45,066 nucleotides of DNA from Ignavibacteria bacterium (lineage in GTDB: Bacteria; Bacteroidota; Ignavibacteria; UBA10030; SZUA-254), in the NCBI GenBank assembly GCA_016178595.1, contig JACOSY010000043.1, positions 1 through 45,066 of the forward strand, in the 5' to 3' direction. The stretch's first letter is position 1. Every line of letters begins with the position of its first letter. Under the pieces are notes generated by a model. It ran no database searches. It was given only the letters and a program-made list of their open reading frames with translations, and had not been told where the DNA came from. The translations under genes and the position numbers were made by a program. Positions 3 to 30,473 of the stretch are shown here, in pieces.

Positions 3-1751
3 CCATCGCCGATTCAGTGTCCTGCGACGCCTGTGTTCCCGGCGCCGACGGCAACTGACGTGTGCGATCCGAGCCCGACAATCACGTTCGCCGATGTACT
101 GACACCGGGGAACTGCCCTGGCGTGTACAGCGTGACGCGTACATGGACGGCGACAGATTGCTCAGGCAATCATTCAAGCTGTCAGCAGACGGTGAACGTC
201 ATAGACACGACACCGCCGACAATTACCTGTGCGGTGGTGACATCACCGATTCAGTGTCCTGCGACGCCTGTGTTCCCGGTGCCGACGGCAACTGACGTGT
301 GCGATCCGAGCCCGACAATCACGTTCGCTGATGTACTGACACCGGGGAACTGCCCTGGCGTGTACAGTGTGACACGTACATGGACGGCGACAGATTGCTC
401 AGGCAATCATTCAAGCTGTCAGCAGACAGTGAACGTCATAGACACGACACCGCCCGTGATTACCTGTGCTGGACCGAAAACGATAGATTGTGCGGCAACG
501 GTCGTATTCGATACGCCGACATTCAGCGATAACTGCGATCCAAATCCTGTCCTGAGCATTATCTCGACAGTTGGTACGGCAGGAAGCTGCGTAACGGAAT
601 CGTGCTACACTCGTACGTGGCGTGTGACTGACTGCGCAGGCAACTTCAGTGAGTGCAGCCAGACGATCTGCAAGCATGATGCGACACCGCCGGTGTTGAC
701 GTGCCATGCGGATACGACTGTTGCCTGTACATCAGCGGTTGCGTTCACGCCGCCTCAGGTGACGGACAACTGCGACCCGAATCCGACGGTCGTCATCTTG
801 TCGACGGTCGCCACACCTGGAGTGAACCTTGGTGACACGGTCTATACACGAACGTGGCAGGCTACGGACTGCGCCGGCAATGCAAGCGCGCAGTGCAGCC
901 AGAAGATTACTCGATTGGGTTGTCCAGTCGGTGAAGGCTGTACGCCTGGCTTCTGGAAGAACCATTTGTCGCTGTGGGATGGTTGCTCCGATGCGACTGT
1001 TGTCTGCATCAGGAACACCATCACGACTCTCGGCGCTCCATACTCGTATGGCAGTACGTCACCATGTACCGCTACACAGAATGGATTGACCGGTAAGTCG
1101 TTCTGGAATATCTTCGGGCTCGACATCGTTGCGCATCCGGAGTACAAGCGTGGACTGTCCTCGACACTGACGATGCAGCAAGCAATCAATCTTGGCGGCG
1201 GTGGGTTCTCGAAGCTTGCCCGTCATGGTATTGCCGGTCTGCTGAGTTCATGCGCGTTGAGCCAATATCCGTTCACCTCGACGCAAATCCTCCAGATGGT
1301 GCACGATGCGTTCGTGAACAATACACCAGAACCGACGGCGACTCAGATTGCCGCTGCGAACGATGTCAATAACTGCCCGCTGGGTGCTACCTCGACGGGC
1401 CAGATCATCCAGCAAGGCTCGGAAGAAGAAGTGAACAGTGCATCGGTAAAGCCGACAAAGTTTGCACTGCACACCAACTATCCGAACCCGTTCAACCCGA
1501 CGACGTCGATCAAGTTCGACCTCCCTGAACAGAGTGTCGTACGCCTCAGTGTGTTCAACATTCTCGGTCAGGAAGTGGCGGTCTTGGTCAATGGAGTAGT
1601 GGAAGCGGGATTCCGAGAAGTCGAATGGAACACCACCACAGGAAATGGTGTGGTCCTGCCGTCCGGCATCTATCTGTACCGGATCCAGGCAACATCGCTC
1701 TCCAGTGATAAGGAGTTCACTCAGATCAACAAGATGGTTCTGATGAAGTAA
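3..1751 (+). CDS. T9SS-secreted HYR-repeat surface protein, C-terminal part (5' end outside window)
   Basis: The reading frame is open from base 3 and the first in-frame start-like codon (GTG at 33) lies inside a repeat, so the gene begins upstream. Four tandem HYR-like immunoglobulin-fold repeats of about 79 residues follow, each with a DxCDPxP motif, a TRTW-x-(A/V)TDC(A/S)GN core and a TPP linker; the first two are almost identical. Next come a Cys-containing region with the TPGFWKNH motif seen in bacterial surface proteins and a Ser/Thr-rich region. The last ~95 residues are a T9SS type A sorting domain (NYPNPFNPTTSIKFDLPE, then ILGQEV, ending KMVLMK), so the product should be exported by Sec and then by the T9SS to the cell surface. 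HYR domains are generally linked to adhesion; that role is inferred. A strong terminator follows the stop. Confidence 0.85.
   Translation, partial: PSPIQCPATPVFPAPTATDVCDPSPTITFADVLTPGNCPGVYSVTRTWTATDCSGNHSSCQQTVNVIDTTPPTITCAVVTSPIQCPATPVFPVPTATDVCDPSPTITFADVLTPGNCPGVYSVTRTWTATDCSGNHSSCQQTVNVIDTTPPVITCAGPKTIDCAATVVFDTPTFSDNCDPNPVLSIISTVGTAGSCVTESCYTRTWRVTDCAGNFSECSQTICKHDATPPVLTCHADTTVACTSAVAFTPPQVTDNCDPNPTVVILSTVATPGVNLGDTVYTRTWQATDCAGNASAQCSQKITRLGCPVGEGCTPGFWKNHLSLWDGCSDATVVCIRNTITTLGAPYSYGSTSPCTATQNGLTGKSFWNIFGLDIVAHPEYKRGLSSTLTMQQAINLGGGGFSKLARHGIAGLLSSCALSQYPFTSTQILQMVHDAFVNNTPEPTATQIAAANDVNNCPLGATSTGQIIQQGSEEEVNSASVKPTKFALHTNYPNPFNPTTSIKFDLPEQSVVRLSVFNILGQEVAVLVNGVVEAGFREVEWNTTTGNGVVLPSGIYLYRIQATSLSSDKEFTQINKMVLMK
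11..453 (+). repeat. Two near-identical 237-bp tandem repeats in the HYR gene
   Basis: Unit 1 (11-247) and unit 2 (248 to about 453) are colinear with a 237-bp (79-codon) period and differ at only about five positions by eye, for example 44/281 and 93/330. Similarity breaks off at about 453, where a diverged third repeat begins. The first ten bases of the window look like the end of the same unit type, so more copies probably lie upstream. Confidence 0.9.
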
Positions 1752-1774
1752 GACTTCTCATCGAAGGAGTGAAT

Positions 1775-1810
1775 ATGGGGTGGGTATTTTACCCACCCCA
1801 TTTTGTTTTG
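1775..1810 (+). terminator. Rho-independent terminator of the HYR gene
   Basis: A perfect 11-bp stem (1776-1786 with 1790-1800) closes a 3-nt loop of T and is followed by TTTTGTTTT. It lies 24 bp after the stop codon, and the next gene starts 34 bp after the stem. Confidence 0.9.
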
Positions 1811-1833
1811 CAGCCAACGCTACATCGTAGTTT

Positions 1834-3714
1834 ATGAAACAGAATTTAGTAATCAAGTTGCGCCACGTTATTCCGGCAAGACTGGACAAGTTAACAATCC
1901 TGTGGCGAGCGGCGACTCTTTTCGGCATTATCACATTTCTTGCTATCTCCCAGCTCTCTGCACAGGTAAGTCACTGGGTGAAGCAGCAAAGTACAACGTC
2001 GAAGTGGTTGAATGGGGCCGACTTCATAAATGGGAATGTCGGCTGGGCAGTAGGATTCGATGGTATCATCGTGAAAACGATTGATGGCGGGGATCATTGG
2101 CTGCAGCAGCCTCTTGATTCGAGTATTTCGCTTCTTGCAGTCGATTTTATCAATCCGGATACAGGATGGGCCACGGGATATGATACGAGTGGCATCATAC
2201 TCAGGACGACGGATGGTGGTGCACATTGGGATACACACCACGTTAGTTCTTCTCTTAGTGACGTCCAATTCTCCTCACCTGCGTATGGTTGGTCGGTTGG
2301 TCCGGATGGAGTACTCCATTCCACGGATGGCGGGCATACATGGGAACAACAAGTTGTTGATACTTCTGGCGCATTCTTCACATCAGTTTTTTTTCTGAAC
2401 GATAGTATAGGTTGGATTACCGGGCAAGTTCCCGGGCTTGTTCTGCGGACAATTGACGCCGGTCTCACGTGGCAACGTCAGACAAGCGGTATCATTGATT
2501 CTTCAGAGACCATCAATGATGTATTCTTTATCAATGCGGATACTGGCTGGATCGCGGGCTTTGGCTATAACGAGAGCCAATCGTATGGCCTCCTTCGGAA
2601 ATCGACCGATGGAGGAACAACATGGGTCGATCCCCCAAGTGGAACGGATCAGTATCTTCTCTCGATTGGATTTTCAAATGCAAATCGTGGCTGGGCTGTT
2701 GGGGGAAGTGGCACGATTGTAACGACGACTGACGGTGGTCAGACATGGACGAAAGATCTTTCCAATACGACATCTGAGCTGAACAAGATCGTCGTCCAGA
2801 ATAGTGGTGCCTGGGTCGCAGGGTCCGACGGTCTTATTCTCAAGCGTCCGTTTGGTTCGGCGTATCTCCAGGCGAACGTTCGCGTTCAGGATGGGTGGAA
2901 TCTCATCGGCCTGCCTCTTCTTCCCGATGAGGTGCGGAAAGATTCGATCTTCCGAACTGCGACCTCGCATGCCTTTACCTATTATCAGACCTATGAACAG
3001 CGAGATACGATCGAGTTTGGGAGGGGATATTGGCTGAAATTCTTAGGCGACCAAACCATCAACCTTACTGGTTTATCGGTCGACAGTCTCAGGATGAGTT
3101 TACCTCAGGGCTGGAACATGGTGTGTGGTATCACTGATCCATTGCCGGTTGATAGTATCATCGAAGACCCGCCGAATTCAGTCACGGCAGTCTTTGGATA
3201 CGATGGTGCATATTATCCTGCTACGGTTCTCGATCCGGGAAAAGGCTACTGGATAAAAACGAATCAGAACTGTACAGTGACATTCCTCTCTTCTCCATTA
3301 CGCGGCAATGTCACGAGCCACACGTGGATTAATCTCGCACGGTTGCGGTCAGACGAACTGCCGCCCGTAGCACCCATTGGAAATACTATCAAGGAAGAAG
3401 AAAAGGCACATGTGCCGGCGGTCTATGCGCTTCGTCAGAACTATCCCAATCCATTCAATCCGTCAACGACGATATCCTTCGATTTGCCGGAGGAGAGCCG
3501 AGTAGATCTCGGGATTTACAACATGCTTGGACAAGAGGTTTTTGCAGTTGTATCGGGAATGCTTAATGCAGGATCGTACACATATCGATGGAATGCGACC
3601 GGAGATCAGCCAGGACAATATTCATCCGGAGCCTATTTTTATTGGATGACCGCAACTTCGCGTCTTTCCGGGAAAATATATAGTGAAGTGAAGAAAATGA
3701 TTCTCACCAAGTGA
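1834..3714 (+). CDS. T9SS-secreted Ycf48/BNR-like beta-propeller protein
   Basis: A 626-aa secreted protein. Residues 1-24 are basic, 25-44 are hydrophobic and a signal peptidase site follows at about QLSAQ. Residues ~50-345 contain at least six repeats of the Ycf48/sialidase BNR type (GWAVG...G.I..T.DGG..W), which form beta-propellers. Residues ~350-495 hold two copies of a beta-rich unit starting GWN(L/M)(I/V) and ending G(R/K)GYW(L/I)K. From ~529 comes a T9SS sorting domain (NYPNPFNPSTTISFDLPE, ending KMILTK). The ligand or function is unknown. The N-terminal region before the hydrophobic core is unusually long and no clear ribosome binding site precedes 1834, so a later non-ATG start (for example TTG at 1858) is possible. 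Only 34 bp separate it from the upstream terminator. Confidence 0.85.
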   Translation: MKQNLVIKLRHVIPARLDKLTILWRAATLFGIITFLAISQLSAQVSHWVKQQSTTSKWLNGADFINGNVGWAVGFDGIIVKTIDGGDHWLQQPLDSSISLLAVDFINPDTGWATGYDTSGIILRTTDGGAHWDTHHVSSSLSDVQFSSPAYGWSVGPDGVLHSTDGGHTWEQQVVDTSGAFFTSVFFLNDSIGWITGQVPGLVLRTIDAGLTWQRQTSGIIDSSETINDVFFINADTGWIAGFGYNESQSYGLLRKSTDGGTTWVDPPSGTDQYLLSIGFSNANRGWAVGGSGTIVTTTDGGQTWTKDLSNTTSELNKIVVQNSGAWVAGSDGLILKRPFGSAYLQANVRVQDGWNLIGLPLLPDEVRKDSIFRTATSHAFTYYQTYEQRDTIEFGRGYWLKFLGDQTINLTGLSVDSLRMSLPQGWNMVCGITDPLPVDSIIEDPPNSVTAVFGYDGAYYPATVLDPGKGYWIKTNQNCTVTFLSSPLRGNVTSHTWINLARLRSDELPPVAPIGNTIKEEEKAHVPAVYALRQNYPNPFNPSTTISFDLPEESRVDLGIYNMLGQEVFAVVSGMLNAGSYTYRWNATGDQPGQYSSGAYFYWMTATSRLSGKIYSEVKKMILTK

Positions 3715-3807
3715 ATGCGCTACACGGCTTACTGGCCGGTATGATGTGTTCGCATTCAGTGATTATATAAACCACAATTGCATTAAGAAGAATTAATGGA
3801 TTTTCTA

Positions 3808-3836
3808 TTGCATAGTTCCTGACAAGGCACTATATT
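3808..3836 (+). promoter_or_regulatory. Candidate sigma-A promoter, distal
   Basis: TTGCAT at 3808-3813, 17-bp spacer, TATATT at 3831-3836. It fits the pattern seen at other intergenic regions here, but lies 370 bp upstream of the next start. It could give a long leader or a separate small transcript. Confidence 0.35.
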
Positions 3837-4098
3837 ATTATTGTAGAAGAACTTACACAGCCCGCCGACCATAACCTCAAATGTAGGGGTAATGCCTGTG
3901 CGAATACGTCTGATCACCTCCTTCCTCTCCATCCCGACATGCGTACAGTGCCAGCATAGATCTCCGTAGATGTTCATTTTCCTCAAATCCGCGCTTATAT
4001 GCGACTCAAGGGGATCAAACATTTGCGTTCGTTTCGATTGTCATGGAACACACACTGTTGCGGAACAAAATGACGCAGTGATAGCAATCACCCTTTAG

Positions 4099-4127
4099 TT
4101 GAATGGAAGACACCAGTGTGATAAATT
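4099..4127 (+). promoter_or_regulatory. Candidate promoter of the 2043-aa surface protein gene
   Basis: TTGAAT at 4099-4104, 17-bp spacer, TAAATT at 4122-4127. The predicted transcript would start near 4134, giving a leader of about 80 nt before the start codon at 4214. Confidence 0.5.
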
Positions 4128-4213
4128 GAGGGCAATTAAAAACAGCCGCCTGTGTAACTGGCTCTGACACAACCGGCTGACGTAATAATAGAGGATTTTA
4201 TGGAGAGACAAAA

Positions 4214-7200
4214 ATGAAACGGACAATGCTTTTGGTTATTATCGCTTTGCTCCTAACCAATTTGCAAGCGTTTTCCCAATCTTTCAATGCTGTTAAGTTT
4301 ATCGATGCCAGCACCGCATCGGCCGTGGGTACGTCCGGGGCGATAATTCGATCAAGCGATGGAGGATCAACATGGAGCAATCAATCGAGTGGAGTGTCGG
4401 TGACATTGTCTGGTCTATCATTTCCAAGTGCCGGTACCGGGACTGTGGTTGGAGGTGATTTCTTTACAGGTCCAGTTATCACACATACGACGAATGGAGG
4501 TGCCAATTGGAACAACCAAGCTGCTGGCACGTCAAATTCCCTGACTGATGTATTCTTTGTTGATGCAAACATCGGCATCGCTGTAGGCAATAGTGGGACG
4601 ATTTTGCGCACGACGAATGGAGGCAGTACATGGTCTACACAGACGAGCGGAACAACGTACCCATTGTATGGGGTTTCCTTTGCTGATCAGAACACAGGGG
4701 TTGCTGTAGGATATGCTGGCATGATCTTGAGAACAACGAATGGAGGGGTTGGATGGACCACTCAAGTTGCCCCGAACAGCAATCAGTACACTCTGTATGA
4801 CATTTCCTTTGGCGACGTGAACAATGGTACTGCTGTCGGCGATGGAGGTACTATCTTGCGCACTTCCAATGGTGGATCCTCATGGAGCGCCCAATCCAGT
4901 GGCGCCACTCGCACGCTCTACGGTGTCTCTATGGTTGGGTCAAGCACTGGCACGGTCGTCGGCAATGGAGGTTTAATCCTACGTACAACTAATAGTGGCG
5001 CAACATGGACGACTCAGGCGGCTGGCCAGTGGGGTAGTTATGTGCTCTATGGTGTCTCGTTCATCAATGCCAATAATGGTGTTGCAGTCGGTAGTTCCGG
5101 TTTGATACTCCAAACGGTAGATGGTGGTTCATCGTGGACACAACGTTTGGTCAGCAGTGGCGGTTCGCCTCCGTCAGTAATGGTCAATTCCTTAACGGTC
5201 TGCTCGGGAACATCCGGCACGCTCACAGCAACGGTGACAGGAGGAACATCACCATATACGTACTCTTGGAACACCGGCGCAACCACACAATCTATCACGA
5301 CCTCAACAGCCGGCACTTATACCGTCACTGTAACGGATTCAAAAGGCGCCACAGCTACGAGCTCAGGAACGCTCACGGTTAATCTTCCGCCGTCAGTATC
5401 AGTGAATTCACTTACAGTTTGCTCAGGCTCGTCGGGTACACTCACTGCGACTGTCACCGGTGGGACATCTCCCTATACGTACTTGTGGAATACCGGTGCT
5501 ACGACTCCCTCAATCACGACCTCGACCGGAGGTACCTATAGCGTGACCGTCACCGACTCCAAGGGCTGCTCGGGGATAGGGTCGGGTATCCTGACGGTCA
5601 ATCCGCCGATGACGATGAGTCTGGCTTCGACGAATGTTAGCTGTAACGGCGGTGCTAATGGATCGATAACTGCAACCTTTAGCGGCGGTTTGGTTCCATA
5701 CACAATACAGATTGACGGAGGCGCATACGCTGCGGCCACTTCTCCCAAAATATTCTATAGCCTTGCCGCAGGTGCCCACACCGTCTATCTCAAAGATGCT
5801 CTTGGATGTATTGTTTCCCAATCCGTCACACTGACACAGCCGGCTGCTCTGACGCTGAGCCTCTCAAGCAGCAATGTATCCTGCAACGGCGGATCGAATG
5901 GAACTATTACATTGACGGCGACAGGCGGAACCTCGCCATACTCGTACTCCAAGGATGGTGGAGTTACATTTCAGGCTTCTAATATTTTTAGTGGATTAGC
6001 AGCAGCTACGTACTCGATTGCGGTGAAGGATGCGAATGGATGCTTGGCGAGTCAATCGGTTACCATTACGCAGCCGGCCGCCATCGCTGTCAATCTAACG
6101 GAGACGGATGTATCGTGTTTCGGCGCAGCGAATGGCACCATCAGTATTACCGCATCTGGCGGTACATCGCCATACACGTACTCGAAGGATGGAATAACCT
6201 TCCAATCAACATCGAGCTTCACAGGGTTGACAGCAGGTTCCTACACCATTACAGTGAAGGATGTTTCGGGCTGCACTAATGCTGCCTCGACCTCGATTGC
6301 ACAACCAGCGCAGTTATCATGCAGTGTCGCATCTGTCGCCGTTTGCGCGGGGAGTTCTGGAACTCTCACCGCATTGGTAAGTGGTGGCACATCTCCCTAT
6401 ACTTACAACTGGAGTACCGGGGCGACGACCTCTTCGATCACTGCGTCCACTGCGGGAACGTATAATGTGACCGTCACCGATGCAAAGGGATGCACAGCAA
6501 CCGCTTCGGGTACATTGACCGTAAATTCACTTCCAGTCTTGACCTGCACTGGCGATAGTCTCACATCCACAAAATTGACAGCCACGACGACTGTATCCTC
6601 GACTCCATCGACAGGTGTGTCGTATAGTTGGAGCGGCGCAGGTTTGGTCTCCGGTGGAACGACGTCGAGCGCGACGTGGAATCAAGCCGGTCCCAAAACG
6701 GTTGTTGTTACTAATACATCAACCGGATGCCAGTCCTCGTGTGTTTCGCAAGTAACTCAGGTTTTAGCATCTCCACCTCCCGCTCCGATCTTAAGTGCAC
6801 CGGCTAACGGGTCAACAGGACAAGTGACAACCTTGACATTGGCATGGAATGCCTCCAGCGGAGCGACTAGTTATCGACTACAAGTCGCAACAGATTCAAA
6901 CTTTGTGAGCAAAGTGCTTGATGATTCAACATTGACAACTACATCAAGATCCGTTGGGCCGCTTTTGAACAATACCAAGTACTACTGGCATGTTAACGCC
7001 AAAAATAGCAGTGGCACGAGTTCCTACTCGAGTTTTTGGAATTTCACTACCGTGCCATTGCCGCCGACTGTAACAACGACGGCAGCGACATCAGTGACGT
7101 CGAGTTCAGGAACACTGAACGGAACGGTGAACCCGAACGGAGCCGCGACAACAGCATGGTTCGAATGGGGAACGAGTAGCACGCTTGCAACCTATACAAG

Positions 7201-10200
7201 TACGACCTCTCAGTCGATCGGGTCCGGCACATCGGCAGTCTCGGTGAGTGCCGGACTTACAGGATTGAGTCCGAATACGACGTATTACTATCGTATTGCA
7301 GGACAGAACAGTGCAGGCACGCAGAAAGATGGCATCCTGAGTTTCACGACGAGCGCTGTACTACCGACGGCAGTGACAACGGCAGCGACATCGGTGACGT
7401 CGAGTTCAGGAACACTGAACGGAACGGTAAACCCGAATGGAGCCGCAACAAACGCATGGTTCGAATGGGGGACGAGCAGCACGCTTGCAACATTTACGAG
7501 TACAACCTCTCAGTCGATTGGATCTGGCACATCGGCAGTCTCGGTGAGTGCCGGACTTACAGGATTGAGCGCGAACACCACCTACTACTATCGCGTTGTC
7601 GGACAGAACAGTGCAGGCACACAGAAGGATGGTATCCTGAGCTTTACGACGAGTGCTGTACTGCCGACCGTAACGACGACGGCAGCCACATCGGTTACTT
7701 CCACCGCCGCAACATTGAACGGAACGGTAAACCCGAATGGAGCCGCAACAAACGCATGGTTCGAATGGGGAACGAGCAGCACGCTTGCAACCTATACAAG
7801 TACGACCTCTCAGTCGATCGGGTCCGGCACATCAACAGTCTCGGTGAGTTCCGGACTCACAGGCTTAAGTGCGAACACGACCTACTACTATCGTGTTGTC
7901 GGACAGAACGGTGCGGGGACACAGAAAGACGGCATCTTGAGCTTTACAACAAGTGCTGTACTGCCGACTGTAACAACGACGGCAGCGACATTGGTGACGT
8001 CGAGTTCAGGAACACTGAATGGAACGGTGAACCCGAACGGAGCCGCGACAACAGCATGGTTCGAATGGGGAACGAGCAGCACGCTTGCAACCTATACAAG
8101 TACGACCTCTCAGTCGATCGGGTCCGGCACATCGGCAGTCTCGGTGAGTGCCGGGCTTACGGGGTTAAGTGCGAACACGACGTATTACTATCGTGTTGCA
8201 GGACAGAACAGTGCAGGCACACAAAGAGACGGTATCCTGAACTTTGTTACTCCGCCGCCTCCGGCAATTCCATCACCGTCACTTCTTTCACCTGCTGATG
8301 CTTCTACCGGCCAACCGACGACAGTGACCCTGAGTTGGAGCGCATCGAGCGGTGCGACATCATATCGCGTCCAGGTATCGACAAGCTCGCTTTTCACTTC
8401 GGTTGTGTTAGATGATTCGACGGTGACGACTACATCACGACAGGTTTCCGGTCTTTTGAACAATACGACGTACTACTGGCGAGTCAACGCCAAGGGCAGC
8501 AGCGGAACAAGTAACTGGTCGAGCACATGGAGTTTCACTACCGTGCCATTGCCACCGACCGTAACCACGACGGCAGCCACATCGGTGACGTCGAGTTCAG
8601 GGACACTGAACGGAACGGTAAACCCGAATGGAGCCGCAACAAACGCATGGTTCGAATGGGGGACGAGCAGCACACTTGCAACATTTACGAGTACAACCTC
8701 TCAGTCGATTGGATCTGGCACATCGGCAGTCTCGGTGAGTGCCGGACTTACAGGGTCGAGCGCGAATACGACGTATTACTATCGTGTTGCAGGACAGAAC
8801 AGTGCAGGCACGCAGAAAGATAGTATCCTGAGCTTTACGACGAGTGCTGTACTACCGACGGCAGTGACAACGGCAGCGACATCAGTGACGTCGACTTCAG
8901 GAACACTGAACGGGACAGTGAACCCGAACGGAGCCGCGACAACAGCATGGTTCGAATGGGGGACGAGCAGCACGCTTGCAACCTATACAAGTACGACCTC
9001 TCAGTCGATTGGATCTGGCACATCGGCGGTATCGGTGAGTACAAATCTCACAGGCTTGAGTGCAGGGACAATCTACTACTACCGGATGGTAGGTCAGAAC
9101 AGTGCCGGCACACAGCGTGATGGTATCCTTAGCTTTACAACAACGGTACCCGTCACGAAGTGGACATTGACGGCCGCGTCGTTGAATCCTAGTAGCGGTG
9201 TTGGACTTACTGCAAGCCCTGCTGATAATAATGGACTGACAAGCGGATCAACATTGCTTACCCTTAACTATAACGACGGTACCGTGGCGAACCTAACTGT
9301 GCCGGCGACGGTCGGTGGAAACAATTTCCAGAAGTGGCAGCTCGATGGCGTGGATTACTCTACAAGCCAGTCGGTCGGTATCACTGTGAATAAGAATTGC
9401 ACGCTGACGGCAGTATACGTCACACCGCCGCCTGCAGCGCCAGTCCTGATATCACCGGTTAATGGAGCGACAAATCAGGCGACGACACTGACTTTGTCGT
9501 GGAATCCATCGTCCGGCGCAGCGTCGTATCGACTGCAAGTTTCAACCGGCACGAGCTTCAGTTCGTTGTTCCTGGATGATTCGACATTGACGACAACATC
9601 GCGACAAGTGAGCTCGTTGGCGGGTGGGATCACGTACTACTGGCGTGTAAATGCAATGAACTCCGGAGGCACCAGCCCTTGGTCGACAGTGTGGAGCTTC
9701 AAGACGAAGAAAGGTGGAAAAACGCGTCTCAGCACTGCGAGTATTAACTTTGGCCCCGTCGCGGTCGCTACCTCTGAAAAGGATAGCTTCGGAATCACCA
9801 ATATCGGCGATACGACTGTGAATATTATCAATGTCGTCTCTACAGATCAGGTTTTTAAGGTGAACCAGCGAGGAATTGCTATCCTGCCAGGTGATACGCA
9901 ACAAATCTATGTGGTTGCTGCACCAGATACGCCTACCTCTACCGTTGCTTGGGTGATTGTTACGTACGACGACGGTCTTCCGCCGGATACGATTATTGCG
10001 CAGGTTGATTCAGTCTCCGGCATAACGGGTGTTGATGACGATAAATCGAACCATCCGGTGTCGTTTGCGCTGCATCAAAACTATCCAAATCCGTTTAACC
10101 CGATGACGCGAATCAGCTTTAGTTTGCCAACCAATAGCACGGTGACTCTTCGTGTATTGAACCTCCTTGGGCAGGAAGTTGCAACGCTCTTTGAGAATCA

Positions 10201-10345
10201 GAGTGTGAACGAAGGAGACCATACCGTGGAGTTTGAGGGAACAAACCTTGCATCCGGTGCATACTTCTACCGCATTGATGCGACAGCTGTAAGTAATCCG
10301 AATAAAACATTCACTCAGATACACAAGATGGTTTTGATGAAGTAA
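4214..10345 (+). CDS. Giant T9SS-secreted multi-repeat surface protein (2043 aa)
   Basis: The start is fixed by GGAGAG at 4202-4207 and by a clean signal peptide (MKRTMLLVIIALLLTNLQAFSQ). Order of domains: Ycf48/BNR-like repeats (~23-317); SprB/PKD-like repeats (~318-850) with GGTSPYTYxW or SxxCNGGxNG cores; an FN3-like domain (~854-951); four near-identical 100-aa repeats (952-1351); a second FN3-like domain (~1348-1448); two more 100-aa repeats (~1449-1648); an InlB-B-repeat-like segment (~1649-1737); a third FN3-like domain (~1738-1835); an ASPM/SPD-2/Hydin-like domain (~1836-1940); and a T9SS sorting domain from ~1947 (NYPNPFNPMTRISFSLP, ending KMVLMK). SprB repeats are known from the Flavobacterium gliding adhesin; an adhesin or motility role here is inference. 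Cysteines occur mainly in the SprB-like part. It probably forms a single-gene transcript. Confidence 0.9.
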   Translation: MKRTMLLVIIALLLTNLQAFSQSFNAVKFIDASTASAVGTSGAIIRSSDGGSTWSNQSSGVSVTLSGLSFPSAGTGTVVGGDFFTGPVITHTTNGGANWNNQAAGTSNSLTDVFFVDANIGIAVGNSGTILRTTNGGSTWSTQTSGTTYPLYGVSFADQNTGVAVGYAGMILRTTNGGVGWTTQVAPNSNQYTLYDISFGDVNNGTAVGDGGTILRTSNGGSSWSAQSSGATRTLYGVSMVGSSTGTVVGNGGLILRTTNSGATWTTQAAGQWGSYVLYGVSFINANNGVAVGSSGLILQTVDGGSSWTQRLVSSGGSPPSVMVNSLTVCSGTSGTLTATVTGGTSPYTYSWNTGATTQSITTSTAGTYTVTVTDSKGATATSSGTLTVNLPPSVSVNSLTVCSGSSGTLTATVTGGTSPYTYLWNTGATTPSITTSTGGTYSVTVTDSKGCSGIGSGILTVNPPMTMSLASTNVSCNGGANGSITATFSGGLVPYTIQIDGGAYAAATSPKIFYSLAAGAHTVYLKDALGCIVSQSVTLTQPAALTLSLSSSNVSCNGGSNGTITLTATGGTSPYSYSKDGGVTFQASNIFSGLAAATYSIAVKDANGCLASQSVTITQPAAIAVNLTETDVSCFGAANGTISITASGGTSPYTYSKDGITFQSTSSFTGLTAGSYTITVKDVSGCTNAASTSIAQPAQLSCSVASVAVCAGSSGTLTALVSGGTSPYTYNWSTGATTSSITASTAGTYNVTVTDAKGCTATASGTLTVNSLPVLTCTGDSLTSTKLTATTTVSSTPSTGVSYSWSGAGLVSGGTTSSATWNQAGPKTVVVTNTSTGCQSSCVSQVTQVLASPPPAPILSAPANGSTGQVTTLTLAWNASSGATSYRLQVATDSNFVSKVLDDSTLTTTSRSVGPLLNNTKYYWHVNAKNSSGTSSYSSFWNFTTVPLPPTVTTTAATSVTSSSGTLNGTVNPNGAATTAWFEWGTSSTLATYTSTTSQSIGSGTSAVSVSAGLTGLSPNTTYYYRIAGQNSAGTQKDGILSFTTSAVLPTAVTTAATSVTSSSGTLNGTVNPNGAATNAWFEWGTSSTLATFTSTTSQSIGSGTSAVSVSAGLTGLSANTTYYYRVVGQNSAGTQKDGILSFTTSAVLPTVTTTAATSVTSTAATLNGTVNPNGAATNAWFEWGTSSTLATYTSTTSQSIGSGTSTVSVSSGLTGLSANTTYYYRVVGQNGAGTQKDGILSFTTSAVLPTVTTTAATLVTSSSGTLNGTVNPNGAATTAWFEWGTSSTLATYTSTTSQSIGSGTSAVSVSAGLTGLSANTTYYYRVAGQNSAGTQRDGILNFVTPPPPAIPSPSLLSPADASTGQPTTVTLSWSASSGATSYRVQVSTSSLFTSVVLDDSTVTTTSRQVSGLLNNTTYYWRVNAKGSSGTSNWSSTWSFTTVPLPPTVTTTAATSVTSSSGTLNGTVNPNGAATNAWFEWGTSSTLATFTSTTSQSIGSGTSAVSVSAGLTGSSANTTYYYRVAGQNSAGTQKDSILSFTTSAVLPTAVTTAATSVTSTSGTLNGTVNPNGAATTAWFEWGTSSTLATYTSTTSQSIGSGTSAVSVSTNLTGLSAGTIYYYRMVGQNSAGTQRDGILSFTTTVPVTKWTLTAASLNPSSGVGLTASPADNNGLTSGSTLLTLNYNDGTVANLTVPATVGGNNFQKWQLDGVDYSTSQSVGITVNKNCTLTAVYVTPPPAAPVLISPVNGATNQATTLTLSWNPSSGAASYRLQVSTGTSFSSLFLDDSTLTTTSRQVSSLAGGITYYWRVNAMNSGGTSPWSTVWSFKTKKGGKTRLSTASINFGPVAVATSEKDSFGITNIGDTTVNIINVVSTDQVFKVNQRGIAILPGDTQQIYVVAAPDTPTSTVAWVIVTYDDGLPPDTIIAQVDSVSGITGVDDDKSNHPVSFALHQNYPNPFNPMTRISFSLPTNSTVTLRVLNLLGQEVATLFENQSVNEGDHTVEFEGTNLASGAYFYRIDATAVSNPNKTFTQIHKMVLMK
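7067..8266 (+). repeat. Four tandem 300-bp repeats (copies 1-4)
   Basis: Copies begin at 7067, 7367, 7667 and 7967, each exactly 300 bp (100 codons), in phase with the reading frame. Each encodes an FN3-like unit with GTLNGTVNPNG, WFEWGTSSTLAT and NTTYYYR motifs. Copies 1 and 4 share one set of variant bases, copy 2 another, and copy 3 switches from one set to the other. Confidence 0.95.
8558..9157 (+). repeat. Two further 300-bp repeats (copies 5-6)
   Basis: Copies begin at 8558 and 8858 and match copies 1-4, from which they are separated by one diverged FN3-like module (about 8255-8557). Copy 5 resembles copy 2. Copy 6 mixes the two variant sets. Confidence 0.95.
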
Positions 10346-10493: not shown

Positions 10494-11489
10494 TTACATC
10501 ATCCTCTTCAGAACGAGCATCGTCAAGTCGTCTAACCGTTCTCGTCCGGCGGAAAACGTTGTGAAGTTTTCCCGGCACTCCTGAATAATGTCGTGTGGCG
10601 CTCGGTGGTGAGTTCCATCCACATCCAATAGTGAGATCAACCGCTCTTCGCCAAATTCTTCCTCAGATGGGTTTCGTCCCTCCGTCAAGCCATCGGTGTA
10701 AAGAAAGAGCGTATCGTCCCGGCTCAGCTTTATTCTCTCCATCTCGTAATGACCCTCTTTCACCAATCCGATTGGGAATCCTGTCGGCGCAATTTTCACC
10801 GTCGATACGCCGTGGCGGAGAAGTAATGGCGGATTATGGCCCGCATTGACAATCTCAAGCATCCCATCGGGCGATATCCTGCCGCAGACGAGCGTTGCAA
10901 AATGAGTGGAGAGCGTGCTCTCCGAGAAAATTCTGTTTGCACGTTCAATGAGCTGCGGTAACGGGATGTCGCTTGACGTGAGGCTGTGAAAGATAGCGTG
11001 GAGCTGCGTCATCAAGAGTGAGGCGGAGACGCCTTTTCCCATTACGTCGCCGAGGAACAGATATGCCGTGCCATCATCGCGTTTCAAGATGTCGCAGTAA
11101 TCGCCGCTCACCGGCCCCACAGGCTCATAGCGGTATGCAAACTCGTATCCATCAAGCTTGAGGTCGCTCGGCGGGAGCAATTGTCCTTGAATCTGTGAAG
11201 CAAGCTGAAGATCCCGCTCGACGGCCCGTTGCTGTTCCTCGGAAAGATGCCCAAGACAGACGGTCACCATGGGATATGCTCGAATATAATTGGGCTCAAT
11301 CGAATCGTTACAGACATCGCAGATGCCGTAATTGCCCGAGTCGATGCGTTCGAGCGCCGATTCGACTTCCTGAAGAAGTCCAAGAAGGCGAGCGGATGCA
11401 GAAGGAGTTTCGCGTATCGTTTCCTGCAACCTGCGAGCTCGGTAGTCAAGTTGTGCGCGGAGTGCGTGAGGATGCAATGAAGTATCCAT
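10494..11489 (-). CDS. SpoIIE/RsbU-type PP2C phosphatase with N-terminal DksA-type zinc finger
   Basis: A 331-aa cytoplasmic fusion. Residues ~10-52 are predicted helical/coiled-coil and lead into a TraR/DksA-type finger: C57-x2-C60-x17-C78-x2-H81, the DksA spacing but with His as the fourth ligand, preceded by ALERIDSGNYGIC typical of the family. Residues ~90-330 are a SpoIIE/RsbU serine phosphatase (PP2C fold) with acidic metal ligands in SGDYCD (D130, D133), GDVMGKG, NAGHNPP, TDGLTEGRN and DDLT. RsbU-type enzymes dephosphorylate STAS-domain anti-sigma antagonists; the STAS protein at 30111 is a possible but unproven substrate. There are no membrane or receiver segments, so the finger presumably supplies the input. 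The gene is divergent from aspS; no confident promoter was found for it. Confidence 0.88.
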   Translation of the reverse strand: MDTSLHPHALRAQLDYRARRLQETIRETPSASARLLGLLQEVESALERIDSGNYGICDVCNDSIEPNYIRAYPMVTVCLGHLSEEQQRAVERDLQLASQIQGQLLPPSDLKLDGYEFAYRYEPVGPVSGDYCDILKRDDGTAYLFLGDVMGKGVSASLLMTQLHAIFHSLTSSDIPLPQLIERANRIFSESTLSTHFATLVCGRISPDGMLEIVNAGHNPPLLLRHGVSTVKIAPTGFPIGLVKEGHYEMERIKLSRDDTLFLYTDGLTEGRNPSEEEFGEERLISLLDVDGTHHRAPHDIIQECRENFTTFSAGRERLDDLTMLVLKRMM

Positions 11490-15322: not shown

Positions 15323-16430
15323 ATGTTTGAAAACATCAAAGAGACATTGCACGAATTCGAGAGTAAGCTTTCCGCACTCCGGGGGTATCTTTGACCTCGA
15401 TACCAAAGAAAAAGAAATAGCCGATCTCGAAGCCCGCGCTCACGCGCCTGATTTCTGGAACGACAACGTTATGGCGCAGAAGATCATGCAGCAGCTCAAC
15501 CAGCGGAAGATCTGGGTGGATGGGTGGACTGCCATCAAGAGAAAAATGCAGGATGCTCAAACTCTCCTCGATCTTGCCGAAGAATCGGGCGATGCTTCGT
15601 TTGCCGATGAACTCCAATCCGAAGTAACGCACATCCGGCAAGGATTGGAAGATCTGGAATTCCGCAACATGCTGAGCGGGGAGGATGACGTGAAGAACTG
15701 CATCCTCACGATCCATTCGGGCGCCGGAGGGACGGAGTCGCAGGACTGGGCAGAGATGTTGCTGCGCATGTACTTGCGCTGGTGTGAGAAGAAAGGATTC
15801 AAGACGTTTCTCCTCGATGAACAAGCCGGCGAAGGCGCAGGGATCAAGAGTGTCGCCGTCGAAGTGCAAGGGATGAACGCCTTCGGCTATTTGAAAGCCG
15901 AGAGCGGAGTTCACCGGCTGGTTCGCATCTCGCCGTTCGATGCGAATGCACGCCGGCATACTTCCTTCGCTTCTGTCTTCGTCTATCCCGAGATTGAGGA
16001 TGAAGTCGAGATTGAAATAAATCCGGCTGATCTCGATATTGGAACATTTCGATCCGGCGGGAAAGGCGGACAAAACGTCAACAAGGTCGAGACCGCTGTT
16101 CGTATCAAGCATATACCGACTGGTGTAGTCGTTGCGTGCCAGCAGGAGCGGTCGCAGTTCCAGAATAAAGAGCGCGCGATGAAGATGTTGAAGTCACGCC
16201 TCTACCAGATGCGGAAGGAAGAAGAAGAAGCGAAACGCGATGCGATCAATAGCACGAAGAAGAAAATCGAATGGGGAAGTCAAATTCGCTCGTACGTCTT
16301 CCACCCTTACAATATGGTGAAAGATCATCGGACGGATGTTGAAACCAGCAACGTGCAAGCTGTCATGGATGGCGACCTTGATGAGTTCATCAAGGCATAT
16401 CTGATGGAATTCGGGCCGAAAAATAAATAG
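15323..16430 (+). CDS. prfB: Peptide chain release factor 2 with programmed +1 frameshift
   Basis: Class I release factor for UGA and UAA codons. Translation starts at ATG 15323 ([12 protein letters not shown]) and reads 23 codons to CTT at 15389-15391, followed by an in-frame TGA (15392-15394). The rest of RF2 continues in the +1 frame from GAC at 15393. The slippery context GGGGG-TAT-CTT-TGA-C is the classic autoregulatory site: low RF2 lets ribosomes pause at UGA and shift, producing full-length RF2 of 368 aa, the normal length. The body shows the SPF stop-codon recognition tripeptide ([15 protein letters not shown]) and the catalytic GGQ loop ([18 protein letters not shown]). Calling the gene as a single frame from 15267 would give a false N-terminus. 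Confidence 0.97.
15380..15395 (+). promoter_or_regulatory. prfB programmed +1 frameshift site
   Basis: CGGGGG (15380-15385) acts as the internal Shine-Dalgarno-like element, followed by TAT, the slippery CTT (15389-15391), the UGA stop and C. The arrangement and spacing match the E. coli site; only the first base of the SD element differs (C for A). Confidence 0.95.
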
Positions 16431-26552: not shown

Positions 26553-26581
26553 TTGAATTTTCTTCACTTTCTGGATATATT
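26553..26581 (+). promoter_or_regulatory. Promoter of the histidine kinase-regulator operon
   Basis: TTGAAT at 26553-26558, 17-bp spacer, TATATT at 26576-26581. It lies 4 bp from the divergent permease promoter. The kinase start at 26598 leaves only about 10 nt of leader. Confidence 0.55.
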
Positions 26582-26597
26582 AAGCAAACAGGGTACG

Positions 26598-28466
26598 ATG
26601 AAGATTCCATTCCTTTATAGTCTTCGCTTTAAGGTCGGCTTTGGGTACGTCGTCCTGGTTGCGATCAACATTGCTGCAACCGCGTGGGCAATTTACAACT
26701 TTGGCAGACTTACCAGTTCTCTCAACACGATTCTCACCGAGAATTTTTCCAACATCATGGCTGCTGAGAAAATGGCGAGCACGATCGAGCAGCACGAAGA
26801 TGCGTTATCCTCAATCATGAATCGGGATATCAATAATGGGAAGATCAAGTTTACGCAGGCGAAAGATGACTTCTTCCAGTGGTTCCAGGCGGCGAATGAC
26901 AATCGTGCATTGCCTGATGCCGGCTCGATCCTCGACAACATTCGATTGACGTACGAGGGTTACCTCATCAACTCAGATTCGCTGATCGCATTCTCCGAGC
27001 GACAAGAGTTCGAGCGGGCGAAAGCCTATTATGCGAATATTGTAAGACCGTTCTCTCAGCGGTTGTCGGACAACTGCTTCTGGCTCATCGAGATCAATCA
27101 GAAAGAGATGAAGCGAGTAGCGAAACAAACGAAGTCGACATCCGACGAAGCCATCATTGCAGTGCTCTTCGCAACAGTGTTCGCGACAGTGCTCAGCATT
27201 CTTACGATGATGCAATTTACGAAAAGGATTATTGAGCCTGCGGAACGATTGACGCAAACAGTGAATCAAATTGGGCGCGGTCGCCTTGACTTAAAAATCG
27301 ATATTGAGACGAATGACGAAATTGGCGAGCTCAGTCGTGAATTTAATAAGATGACCGAACGGCTCCGAAAATTCGAAGAAATGAATATCGACAACATTCT
27401 CGCGGAAAAACAGAAGTCTGAAACAATTGTGGAGAGCATCTCCGATGCTCTCATCGTCTGCGATTCCGAAGGTACGATTCAACTGATGAATCGATCAGCG
27501 GAAGATCTTCTCAGCGTCAGAGAAACGGACGTTGTCGGAAAACCAATCTCCGCCTATCTCGCTGATGATCGGCTCCTCGGAATATTGAGATCGCACAATG
27601 ATAATGCGGATAATGCGCAGAGAAGCAGTCCTTACATACAGTTCAACCACAAGGGCCATCAAGTATATGTGCGTCCGCAGGTTTCGGAAATAGCGACACC
27701 GCAAGGAATCCGGCGAGGAGTTGTTCTGATCTTGCAAGATGTAACACAGTTCAAAGAGCTCGACAAAATGAAATCCGATTTTATGGCTGCTGTCTCGCAC
27801 GAGTTCCGTACGCCGCTGACGTCAATCAATATGAGCGTCGATATTCTGCGGCAGCAGATACTTGGGCCGCTAACGTCCTCACAGGAAGAACTCCTCGAAG
27901 CTTCGAAGCGTGACTGTGAACGTCTCACAAAACTCATTCGCGAACTCCTGCAACTCTCGAAGCTTGAAGCAGGCAAGATCGAATTTCGCGAAGAAGTGTT
28001 GGATATTCGAAAGGTTATCGAGTCCTCTGTTCAACCACATGAGCTCCCCTTCAGGGAAAAGGGCGTCGGTTTAAAGTTAGTGCTTGAGAAAAATATGCCA
28101 AGGCTCGTCGGTGATGAGCAGCAGTTATCGTGGGTGATTTCCAACCTGGTGAGCAATGCGCTTCGCTATACGAATAGCGGCGGATGTGTTGAAGTGTACG
28201 CAGGTCATGATGGAAGTGATATGTTGCTTGTACAGGTGAAGGATACGGGGCGGGGTATTTCGCAAGAATACCTGGGCAAAATCTTCGATAAGTTTGTCCA
28301 GGTGAAGCAGACCTTCGATTCGACGCCAGGAAGTGTCGGACTCGGTTTGGCGATTGCAAAGGAAATCATCGAGCTGTACGGCGGAAGAATCTGGGTTGAG
28401 AGTGAGCCTGGCAAGGGCTCGACGTTTTCATTTCGGTTACCGGTGGAGCGCAGGGCGATTGCATGA
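26598..28466 (+). CDS. Membrane-bound sensor histidine kinase (HAMP-PAS-HisKA-HATPase)
   Basis: A 622-aa sensor. TM1 (~10-32), a periplasmic four-helix-like sensor (~33-180), TM2 (~182-205), HAMP (~206-258), PAS (~275-390), HisKA with the phosphorylated H401 in AAVSHEFRTPLTS, and HATPase with VISNLVSNALRYT (N box), VKDTGRGIS and GSVGLGLAIAKEI. The start 26598 (MKIPFLYSLRFKVGFGY) is preceded by CAGGG; an in-frame ATG upstream at 26553 overlaps the promoter and is rejected. It overlaps the next gene by 4 bp (ATGA), so it almost certainly phosphorylates that NtrC-type activator. The signal sensed is unknown. Confidence 0.93.
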   Translation: MKIPFLYSLRFKVGFGYVVLVAINIAATAWAIYNFGRLTSSLNTILTENFSNIMAAEKMASTIEQHEDALSSIMNRDINNGKIKFTQAKDDFFQWFQAANDNRALPDAGSILDNIRLTYEGYLINSDSLIAFSERQEFERAKAYYANIVRPFSQRLSDNCFWLIEINQKEMKRVAKQTKSTSDEAIIAVLFATVFATVLSILTMMQFTKRIIEPAERLTQTVNQIGRGRLDLKIDIETNDEIGELSREFNKMTERLRKFEEMNIDNILAEKQKSETIVESISDALIVCDSEGTIQLMNRSAEDLLSVRETDVVGKPISAYLADDRLLGILRSHNDNADNAQRSSPYIQFNHKGHQVYVRPQVSEIATPQGIRRGVVLILQDVTQFKELDKMKSDFMAAVSHEFRTPLTSINMSVDILRQQILGPLTSSQEELLEASKRDCERLTKLIRELLQLSKLEAGKIEFREEVLDIRKVIESSVQPHELPFREKGVGLKLVLEKNMPRLVGDEQQLSWVISNLVSNALRYTNSGGCVEVYAGHDGSDMLLVQVKDTGRGISQEYLGKIFDKFVQVKQTFDSTPGSVGLGLAIAKEIIELYGGRIWVESEPGKGSTFSFRLPVERRAIA

Positions 28467-29788
28467 CAATGCGTGGGCGAGCGCTCGTTGTTGATGACGA
28501 GCCAAATATCCTGAAAACGCTCTCCATCGGTCTCCAGGCGATTGGCATGGATGTCGAGTCATTTGGAAATCCCTGCGATGCATTAGATCAGTTCGAAGAT
28601 GGAAAGTACGATATCGCGTTTATCGACTTAAAGATGGAACCCATCGATGGAATGCAAGTCCTCAAAGAGATCCGCCTTCGATCGCCGATCACCACCTGTG
28701 TCATCCTCACTGCCCACGGTTCCATCGATAGCGCTGTCGAAGCAATGAAGCTCGGGGCATTTGACTTTCTGCAAAAGCCCTTCGATCTCAAAGAGCTTCA
28801 AGTCTTTACCGGGAAAGTTCTCGAACACCATAAGCTGCAGGTTGAAGTTCGGACACTGCGGCAACAGCTTTCTGCAGAGCATATCGGGCAGGATATTATC
28901 ACACGGAATCCGCTTATGCGTCGGCAGATCGAGCTTGCCAAGCAGATTGCTGAAAGTCCGCTGACGGTCTTGATCGAAGGAGAAAGCGGAACAGGGAAGG
29001 AGCTGGTTGCGCAGCTTATTCACCGAAACTGCAATCGACGGGAAAAACCGTTCGTGAAGGTAAACTGCGCGGCACTTCCGGAAAACCTCCTTGAAAGTGA
29101 GTTGTTCGGTCACGTGAAAGGTGCGTTTACGGGTGCATTCAAGGGTCGAGCAGGACGATTTGAACTGGCAGATGAAGGCACGGTTTTCCTTGACGAGGTT
29201 GGGGAAATTCCACCGGCATCGCAGGTAAAGCTATTACGGTTTCTGCAACATCGTGAGTTCGAACGCGTGGGCGATAGCGTTACGCATAAAATCGATGTGC
29301 GAGTGATCGCCGCGACAAACAGAAGACTTTCAGAAGCGCTCGAGGAAGGGAGCTTCCGTGAAGATCTCTATTACAGACTGAATGCAATCCGAATCACATT
29401 GCCGCCATTGCGCGAGCGTCCTGAAGATATTCTTCTCCTCATCACCCATTTTCTCAAGAAGCTTTCGCCGGAAAGGGACATGCAGATTTCTCCGGAGACA
29501 CTGAGGTTGTTGACGCGGTATCGCTGGCCCGGCAATGTCCGTGAGTTGGAGAACGCTATGGAGCGCGCAGTACTGCTCGCGAAGAGTGGCACAATAGAGC
29601 CGGGGCATCTTCCTTCCGATCTTCAACAAGAGGAAAAGAGTGTTGCAGGACTCCTTTCCCTTGATGAGATAGAGAAGCAACATATCGCTCGTGTGCTTCG
29701 GGTTGCCGGGGATCTTGAAGAGGCAGCTCGTGTTCTCGAGATCGACCCGGCTACACTGTGGAGGAAGCGAAAGAAGTACGGCCTCTAA
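28463..29788 (+). CDS. NtrC-family sigma-54-dependent response regulator
   Basis: A 441-aa activator. Receiver domain at ~5-120 with phosphoacceptor D55 (AFIDLKMEP). AAA+ domain at ~140-375 with Walker A GESGTGKE, the sigma-54-contacting loop GAFTGA (residues 220-225), Walker B GTVFLDEVGEI and the R-finger region. A Fis-type helix-turn-helix lies at the C-terminus (EEAARVLEIDPATLWRKRKKYGL). It remodels sigma-54 RNA polymerase at -24/-12 promoters after phosphorylation by the overlapping kinase. No convincing -24/-12 promoter was found by eye in this window, so its targets are probably elsewhere. Confidence 0.95.
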   Translation: MTMRGRALVVDDEPNILKTLSIGLQAIGMDVESFGNPCDALDQFEDGKYDIAFIDLKMEPIDGMQVLKEIRLRSPITTCVILTAHGSIDSAVEAMKLGAFDFLQKPFDLKELQVFTGKVLEHHKLQVEVRTLRQQLSAEHIGQDIITRNPLMRRQIELAKQIAESPLTVLIEGESGTGKELVAQLIHRNCNRREKPFVKVNCAALPENLLESELFGHVKGAFTGAFKGRAGRFELADEGTVFLDEVGEIPPASQVKLLRFLQHREFERVGDSVTHKIDVRVIAATNRRLSEALEEGSFREDLYYRLNAIRITLPPLRERPEDILLLITHFLKKLSPERDMQISPETLRLLTRYRWPGNVRELENAMERAVLLAKSGTIEPGHLPSDLQQEEKSVAGLLSLDEIEKQHIARVLRVAGDLEEAARVLEIDPATLWRKRKKYGL

Positions 29789-29799
29789 CAAATTCCTTT

Positions 29800-29889
29800 C
29801 TTGCAGATTGCAATCGATCTAATTGCTTTTCCTGCAACGTCTTTAGTGATAACAGGCTCCTACTTTCCCGAACGGTTGCAATCTGCAAG
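29800..29889. repeat. 17-nt inverted repeat bracketing 56 nt
   Basis: CTTGCAGATTGCAATCG (29800-29816) and its inverse (29873-29889) pair at 16 of 17 positions, the exception being a G-T pair. It begins 12 bp after the regulator's stop codon. No T-tract follows, so it is not a typical terminator; it may be a structured RNA, a binding site pair or a tiny mobile remnant. Confidence 0.7.
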
Positions 29890-30006
29890 CCGCGTTCTTC
29901 ATAGCGTCTGTTCTTCGTTTTATTTTTCATTGTTTTTGTACGATTATAACATTCTCTCCGGAGAATTTCCACTTACTTCTGGCATTAGATTTGTCTCACT
30001 CTAAAG

Positions 30007-30034
30007 TAGACAAGCAGTACACTTGCCTTATGCT
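30007..30034 (+). promoter_or_regulatory. Candidate promoter of the STAS-TonB operon
   Basis: TAGACA at 30007-30012, 16-bp spacer, TATGCT at 30029-30034, about 77 bp before the STAS start. Confidence 0.35.
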
Positions 30035-30110
30035 TCGATCTATTCAACGTCATCACGCACAGAAGGAATACATGTTCAGTATCAGTTCCACCGGGATTTG
30101 AAGACATACA

Positions 30111-30473
30111 ATGGCCATCAAGTCGAAAACGATACAGAGCGGCAGAATTGCGATCATAGAACTCAAAGGTTCACTCGTTGGTGATCGTGACACAGACACT
30201 CTTCGTGACACTGTTGCCGATTTCATCGAACAGGGAAACAAATGCCTGGTCATCGACCTCCAGCGCGTCAACTATATGAATAGTTCCGGCATTGGCGCCC
30301 TCATCGCCGCGCATGCGAGCTATGCCAGGAACGCAGGACAAGTGCGGCTGGTGGGAATCAGCAAGAACGTCCAGAATCTCTTCGTTATCACCAAGCTCAT
30401 CGATACTTTTGAAGTCTTTGATAGCATGGACGACGCAATACAAAGTTTTGTAAGTACGAAATCAACCACATAA
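30111..30473 (+). CDS. STAS-domain protein (anti-anti-sigma factor type)
   Basis: A 120-aa single STAS domain like SpoIIAA/RsbV: IAIIELKGSLVGD (strand 1-2), CLVIDLQRVNYMNSSGIGALI with phosphorylatable S58 in NSSG, then VRLVGISKNVQNLFVITKL. Such proteins are switched by an anti-sigma kinase and a PP2C phosphatase; no kinase gene is adjacent. It sits 40 bp upstream of exbB with no terminator between, so it is the first gene of the TonB operon, which is unusual. The SpoIIE-type phosphatase at 10494 is a candidate partner by family logic only. Confidence 0.9.
   Translation: MAIKSKTIQSGRIAIIELKGSLVGDRDTDTLRDTVADFIEQGNKCLVIDLQRVNYMNSSGIGALIAAHASYARNAGQVRLVGISKNVQNLFVITKLIDTFEVFDSMDDAIQSFVSTKSTT

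Follow-up and report, generated by a model that had tools for sequence, protein, structure and literature searches.

DksA is a zinc-bearing regulator of RNA polymerase, and the gene at 10494-11489 of the window (the whole stretch of 45,066 nucleotides of Ignavibacteria DNA that was analysed) raises the question of whether a finger of this type is truly joined there to a SpoIIE/RsbU-type phosphatase and, if so, what it might do. The open reading frame runs on the minus strand from an ATG at 11489 down to 10494 and encodes 331 aa; its parts are listed in Table 1. An earlier note on this DNA had described C57, C60, C78 and H81 at DksA/TraR spacing on top of a full phosphatase catalytic domain, and both descriptions were confirmed. 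The ligands were read directly in the sequence, the SpoIIE family (PF07228) matched residues 138-329 with an E value of 5.9e-50 and 170.3 bits against a cut-off of 25, and the catalytic aspartates D130, D148, D266 and D320/D321 were conserved in 67 of 67 aligned homologues. The finger gave a weaker match, as the Pfam family zf-dskA_traR (residues 52-79, E 7.7e-5) scored 23.0 bits, 1.9 bits short of its curated cut-off of 24.9. The NCBIfam models yteA (residues 38-91, E 4.8e-10) and DksA_like (residues 32-79, E 1.7e-9) also matched, both under the NCBIfam cut-offs, which are set for full-length members. The first Cys was preceded by 56 residues, compared to 54 in most homologues, and the start is therefore credible.

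Table 1. Coordinates of the fusion gene and its parts within the window.
Feature	Position	Strand	Evidence
Fusion gene, 331 aa, DksA-type module + SpoIIE/RsbU-type PPM phosphatase	10494..11489	minus	ORF, Pfam, NCBIfam, AF2
Helical hairpin, residues 7-27 + 33-51, equivalent to the DksA coiled coil in shortened form	11337..11471	minus	AF2 secondary structure, DksA superposition
Zinc site C57-x2-C60-x17-C78-x2-H81	11247..11321	minus	Sequence, conservation
Single helix 84-104, both DksA C-terminal helix and RsbU-type linker, end IQxxLLP	11178..11240	minus	
PPM/SpoIIE phosphatase domain, residues 112-331, catalytic aspartates intact	10497..11156	minus	

The AF2 model of the whole protein (pLDDT 94.2, pTM 0.84) contained helices at residues 7-27, 33-51, 66-71 and 84-104, followed by the phosphatase. 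Residues 82-329 superposed on residues 144-391 of P. aeruginosa RssB (Z 23.7, rmsd 2.3, 228 aligned) and residues 83-330 on SiaA (Z 28.3), the linker helix being included in both cases, and the phosphatase also superposed on Rv1364c (Z 26.2). The PP2C domain of SiaA (P. aeruginosa) and Rv1364c (M. tuberculosis) were the closest solved phosphatase folds, although their N-terminal regions differ from that of the fusion protein, Rv1364c combining a kinase and a STAS domain with the phosphatase in one chain. RsbU of Bacillus and RssB share with it the phosphatase domain, the catalytic residues and the preceding helical linker, with RssB superposing from the linker onward, whereas the sensor is a four-helix domain in RsbU, a response receiver in RssB and the DksA-type module in the fusion.

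When the module was modelled in isolation (residues 1-108, AF2 pLDDT 89), only DksA structures (6ptg, 4ijj and 5vsw) were matched by Foldseek at E<=0.001. The six best Z scores of the predicted model were all with DksA (8.3-9.9, all others being 6.2 or lower), and the superposition covered the whole length of the module. Compared to residues 28-151 of E. coli DksA (1tjl), module residues 1-94 gave 94 aligned positions with about 30 residues missing, a shortening that we place in the coiled coil of the module. The homology thus extends beyond the finger to the entire fold (hairpin, zinc site and C-terminal helix; residues 1-95). In the predicted model, the last helix of the module passes without a break into the linker helix leading to the phosphatase. 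The fourth ligand, H81, stands three residues before this linker helix. The hairpin, the spacing of the zinc site and the C-terminal helix are common to the DksA/TraR/YteA proteins, but in the fusion the coiled coil is short, the DxxDxA motif is not conserved, the fourth ligand is mostly His instead of Cys, and the C-terminal helix runs into an enzyme. The protein is an RsbU/RssB-type serine phosphatase with a complete but shortened DksA-type module in the sensor position.

In the homologue alignment, C57, C60 and C78 were invariant (67/67), and position 81 was occupied by His in 63 sequences, by Asp in three and by Cys in one. As zf-dskA_traR was detected at E<=0.01 in 66 of these 67 homologues and SpoIIE in all of them, the finger is no chance motif, and the true fusion proposed in the earlier note stands; homologues without the Cys/His set, which would have spoken against it, were looked for, and the set was kept. 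When all sets were pooled, 116 distinct finger-linker segments were obtained, with His as the fourth ligand in 100, Cys in 10, Asp in five and Glu in one. The three Cys were kept in all 116 distinct fusion proteins; the script used here required the Cys set, yet none of the fusions listed elsewhere was without it. The first two Cys were also partly selected for, because one of the two scan patterns contained them; neither pattern covered the third Cys or the fourth ligand, and many scan matches (for example CPTCNDTVEK) did not fit the finger pattern. The spacing between the Cys pairs was 17 in 115 of the segments and 19 in the remaining one, and exactly 22 residues separated the fourth ligand from the Leu-Leu-Pro that closes the linker helix in every case (116/116). 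Strong selection on the metal-ligand set is supported by these alignments.

With the pattern CX2CX17CX2C, the spacing in the 10494-11489 protein was exact but the fourth ligand was His, as the earlier note had pointed out, so the site is a C3H variant and not a C4 finger. By contrast, stand-alone DksA-type proteins from the same phylum, found with a script that required three Cys and left the fourth ligand free, had Cys at this position in 10 of 10 cases. Given the His in 100 of the 116 fusions, His is therefore a trait of the fusion family, in which a C4 branch exists in some Acidobacteriota. Asp or Glu was found as the fourth ligand in the homologues L118, L125, L132, L204, L205 and L209. 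At the end of the linker (IQxxLLP), Q101 and P106 were conserved in 67 of 67 homologues, and the A-x-x-IQ-x-x-LLP ending was also present in most non-fused paralogues (18/23 with the strict pattern).

Full-length fusion homologues were present in at least 12 of 60 relatives, seven belonging to one subfamily and five to a second, more distant one. Across the phylum, the fusion was detected in 10 of the 296 genomes drawn (long frames, E<=1e-8); it was also found in about 30 of 199 Acidobacteriota and in some Zixiibacteriota. A contig scan with the 10494-11489 protein alone gave no matches, and an N-terminal alignment was needed as the query. The scan of named genomes yielded 135 relatives, of which 80 were kept, mostly from Acidobacteriota and Ignavibacteria/Bacteroidota, with two from Zixiibacteriota. 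Single scan matches labelled Verrucomicrobia, Chloroflexi or Bacillota may be misbinned, and the 'Bacillota' locus L147 has acidobacterial neighbour genes. In plasmid records, the phosphatase-domain matches did not exceed about 35% identity, and none of those listed was clearly a full-length fusion. In the phosphatase-domain tree, each of the two subfamilies formed one group, the main one with 42 rows (support 100/100) and the second with six (100/99), and a single fusion event for both is no more than possible (30/92). The same join between DksA module and phosphatase is kept in many soil and sediment bacteria. Literature searches returned no description of a DksA/SpoIIE fusion, although sequence databases may list the architecture; it constitutes a new domain arrangement of known parts.

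In the window, aspS and the fusion gene are divergently oriented and lie 278 bases apart. Around the fusion, no neighbour gene was conserved across phyla in the neighbourhoods fetched, nor were aspS and the other neighbours in the window conserved in the Bacteroidota loci, where several contigs were short. In 13 acidobacterial-type loci, the fusion directly followed genes for an MrfA-type helicase (MZB domain) and an RNase_H_2 exonuclease, with a gap of 37-141 bases; these loci include L116, L106, L104, L081, L078, L147 and seven others. This adjacency makes a link to DNA repair possible. The genome itself encodes eight SpoIIE phosphatases, eight STAS matches and two small RsbW-like kinases, on C52 and C15, and as its phosphatase-STAS-kinase cluster of the usual type is on contig C52, away from the fusion, the latter is an orphan.

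A histidine kinase, an NtrC-type regulator and a stand-alone STAS gene lie in a row at 26553-30473 of the window. The STAS protein at 30111 had been named in the earlier note as a substrate to try, but 49 of 60 relatives had a homologue of it whether or not they carried the fusion, and a STAS gene was near the fusion in only one fetched neighbourhood. Neither neighbourhood nor occurrence thus supported a specific link between this STAS protein and the fusion. In L131, a STAS gene and an NtrC-type regulator are near the fusion, and that STAS is a second paralogue in its genome. L131/L170 have a regulator-STAS pair like the one at 26553-30473, no more than 3 kb away from the fusion.

Linker-mediated dimerisation has been described as a general control of RsbU-type phosphatases, with interchangeable sensors (PMC12143880), and a passage of PMC4815678 citing Henard 2014 reports that thiol modification of the Salmonella DksA fingers leads to loss of zinc and helicity. 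Taken together, they make a linker controlled by zinc or thiols the most economical reading, and one that we infer from these two precedents. Like RsbU and RssB, the fusion protein would act as a dimer; whether its linker helices are ordered would depend on the zinc site, and this order would in turn determine the phosphatase activity. With zinc bound, H81 would clamp the base of the linker helix, and upon zinc loss or oxidation of the three thiols this base would loosen. As in the rest of the family, the enzyme would probably act on the phosphorylated form of a STAS anti-anti-sigma protein that belongs to a partner-switching system. We consider it the likeliest explanation, at about even odds, that the DksA module stands in for the usual sensor and acts on the phosphatase via the dimer linker helix, the input possibly being the state of zinc or of the thiols. 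Its stricter form, a direct switch in which zinc loss or oxidation of C57/C60/C78 frees H81, alters the pairing of the linkers and thereby switches the phosphatase, either on or off, is possible but less likely than not; redox or zinc state would then feed into a sigma-factor partner switch with no contact to RNA polymerase. Metal or redox control of the phosphatase is a plausible hypothesis. The STAS proteins and the two RsbW-like kinases of the genome are potential targets and count for the linker mechanism, whereas the orphan position without conserved partner-switch neighbours counts against it. The constant 22-residue spacing could also reflect common ancestry of a helix free of indels, and with C4 in 10 and Asp or Glu in six of the 116 segments, the exact metal chemistry varies.

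The main rival to such a linker is a module that is purely structural, serving for dimerisation or docking, in which zinc holds the fold and the input is a protein partner bound to the hairpin, like RsbT on RsbU. Many zinc sites are structural, and R17 and D93, neither of them a metal ligand, did not vary in any of the 67 homologues. For RsbU itself, switching by a bound partner is described (PMC12143880), and P. aeruginosa DksA2 is described in PMC9213440 as having the DksA fold without zinc; since DksA folds are possible without the metal, the zinc site of the fusion may be only structural in effect. However, no conserved neighbour gene that could encode the partner was found across the family, and no shared operon outside one acidobacterial group, and we regard this explanation as a real possibility that falls short of being probable.

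Two further explanations received less credit. The module could bind RNA polymerase in the manner of DksA, bringing the phosphatase to the sigma/anti-sigma machinery; the homology to DksA is true across the whole module, and TraR, a short relative of DksA, can bind the secondary channel. Nevertheless, in the comparison with 1tjl the coiled coil falls short of the DksA one by about 30 residues, and DxxDxA, the acidic motif of the coiled-coil tip in DksA, preceded the finger in only four of 67 homologues. The hairpin-tip columns were mostly unconserved in the same alignment, and the genome carries a separate DksA-like gene (C59:66047). The short coiled coil and the lack of conservation of DxxDxA make this reading weak, and the RNA polymerase contact raised in the earlier note is accordingly unlikely. 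A decayed or accidental finger, with an N-terminal region devoid of metal function, would agree with the Pfam score slightly below the curated cut-off in the 10494-11489 protein, but it is hardly credible when the three Cys were invariant in every fusion examined, the fourth ligand was only His, Cys, Asp or Glu, and the Pfam finger was recognised in all but one of the aligned homologues.

In the fusion, a DksA fold, most probably acting away from RNA polymerase, takes the place of the input domain in a signalling phosphatase, and this use is kept across several phyla. The conservation of the join points to zinc or oxidation as a possible switch of the enzyme. As the protein is predicted to be soluble and single-chain, and only 22 residues lie between the candidate switch and the enzyme, it offers a simple and direct test case, both for the proposal that exchangeable sensors control PPM phosphatases via linker helices (PMC12143880) and for the idea that DksA fingers may serve as thiol switches in settings other than transcription.

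Elsewhere in the window, the start of prfB (release factor 2) was found at 15323-15400, where the ATG at 15323 is followed by cgggggtatctttgac. This fits the classic programmed +1 frameshift site; therefore, translation of the real gene uses two frames, and the start of the listed frame is not the true start. The region 33-10345 encodes three large proteins whose C-termini resemble type IX secretion sorting signals (NYPNPFNP...), the third of them consisting of 2043 aa of tandem repeats.
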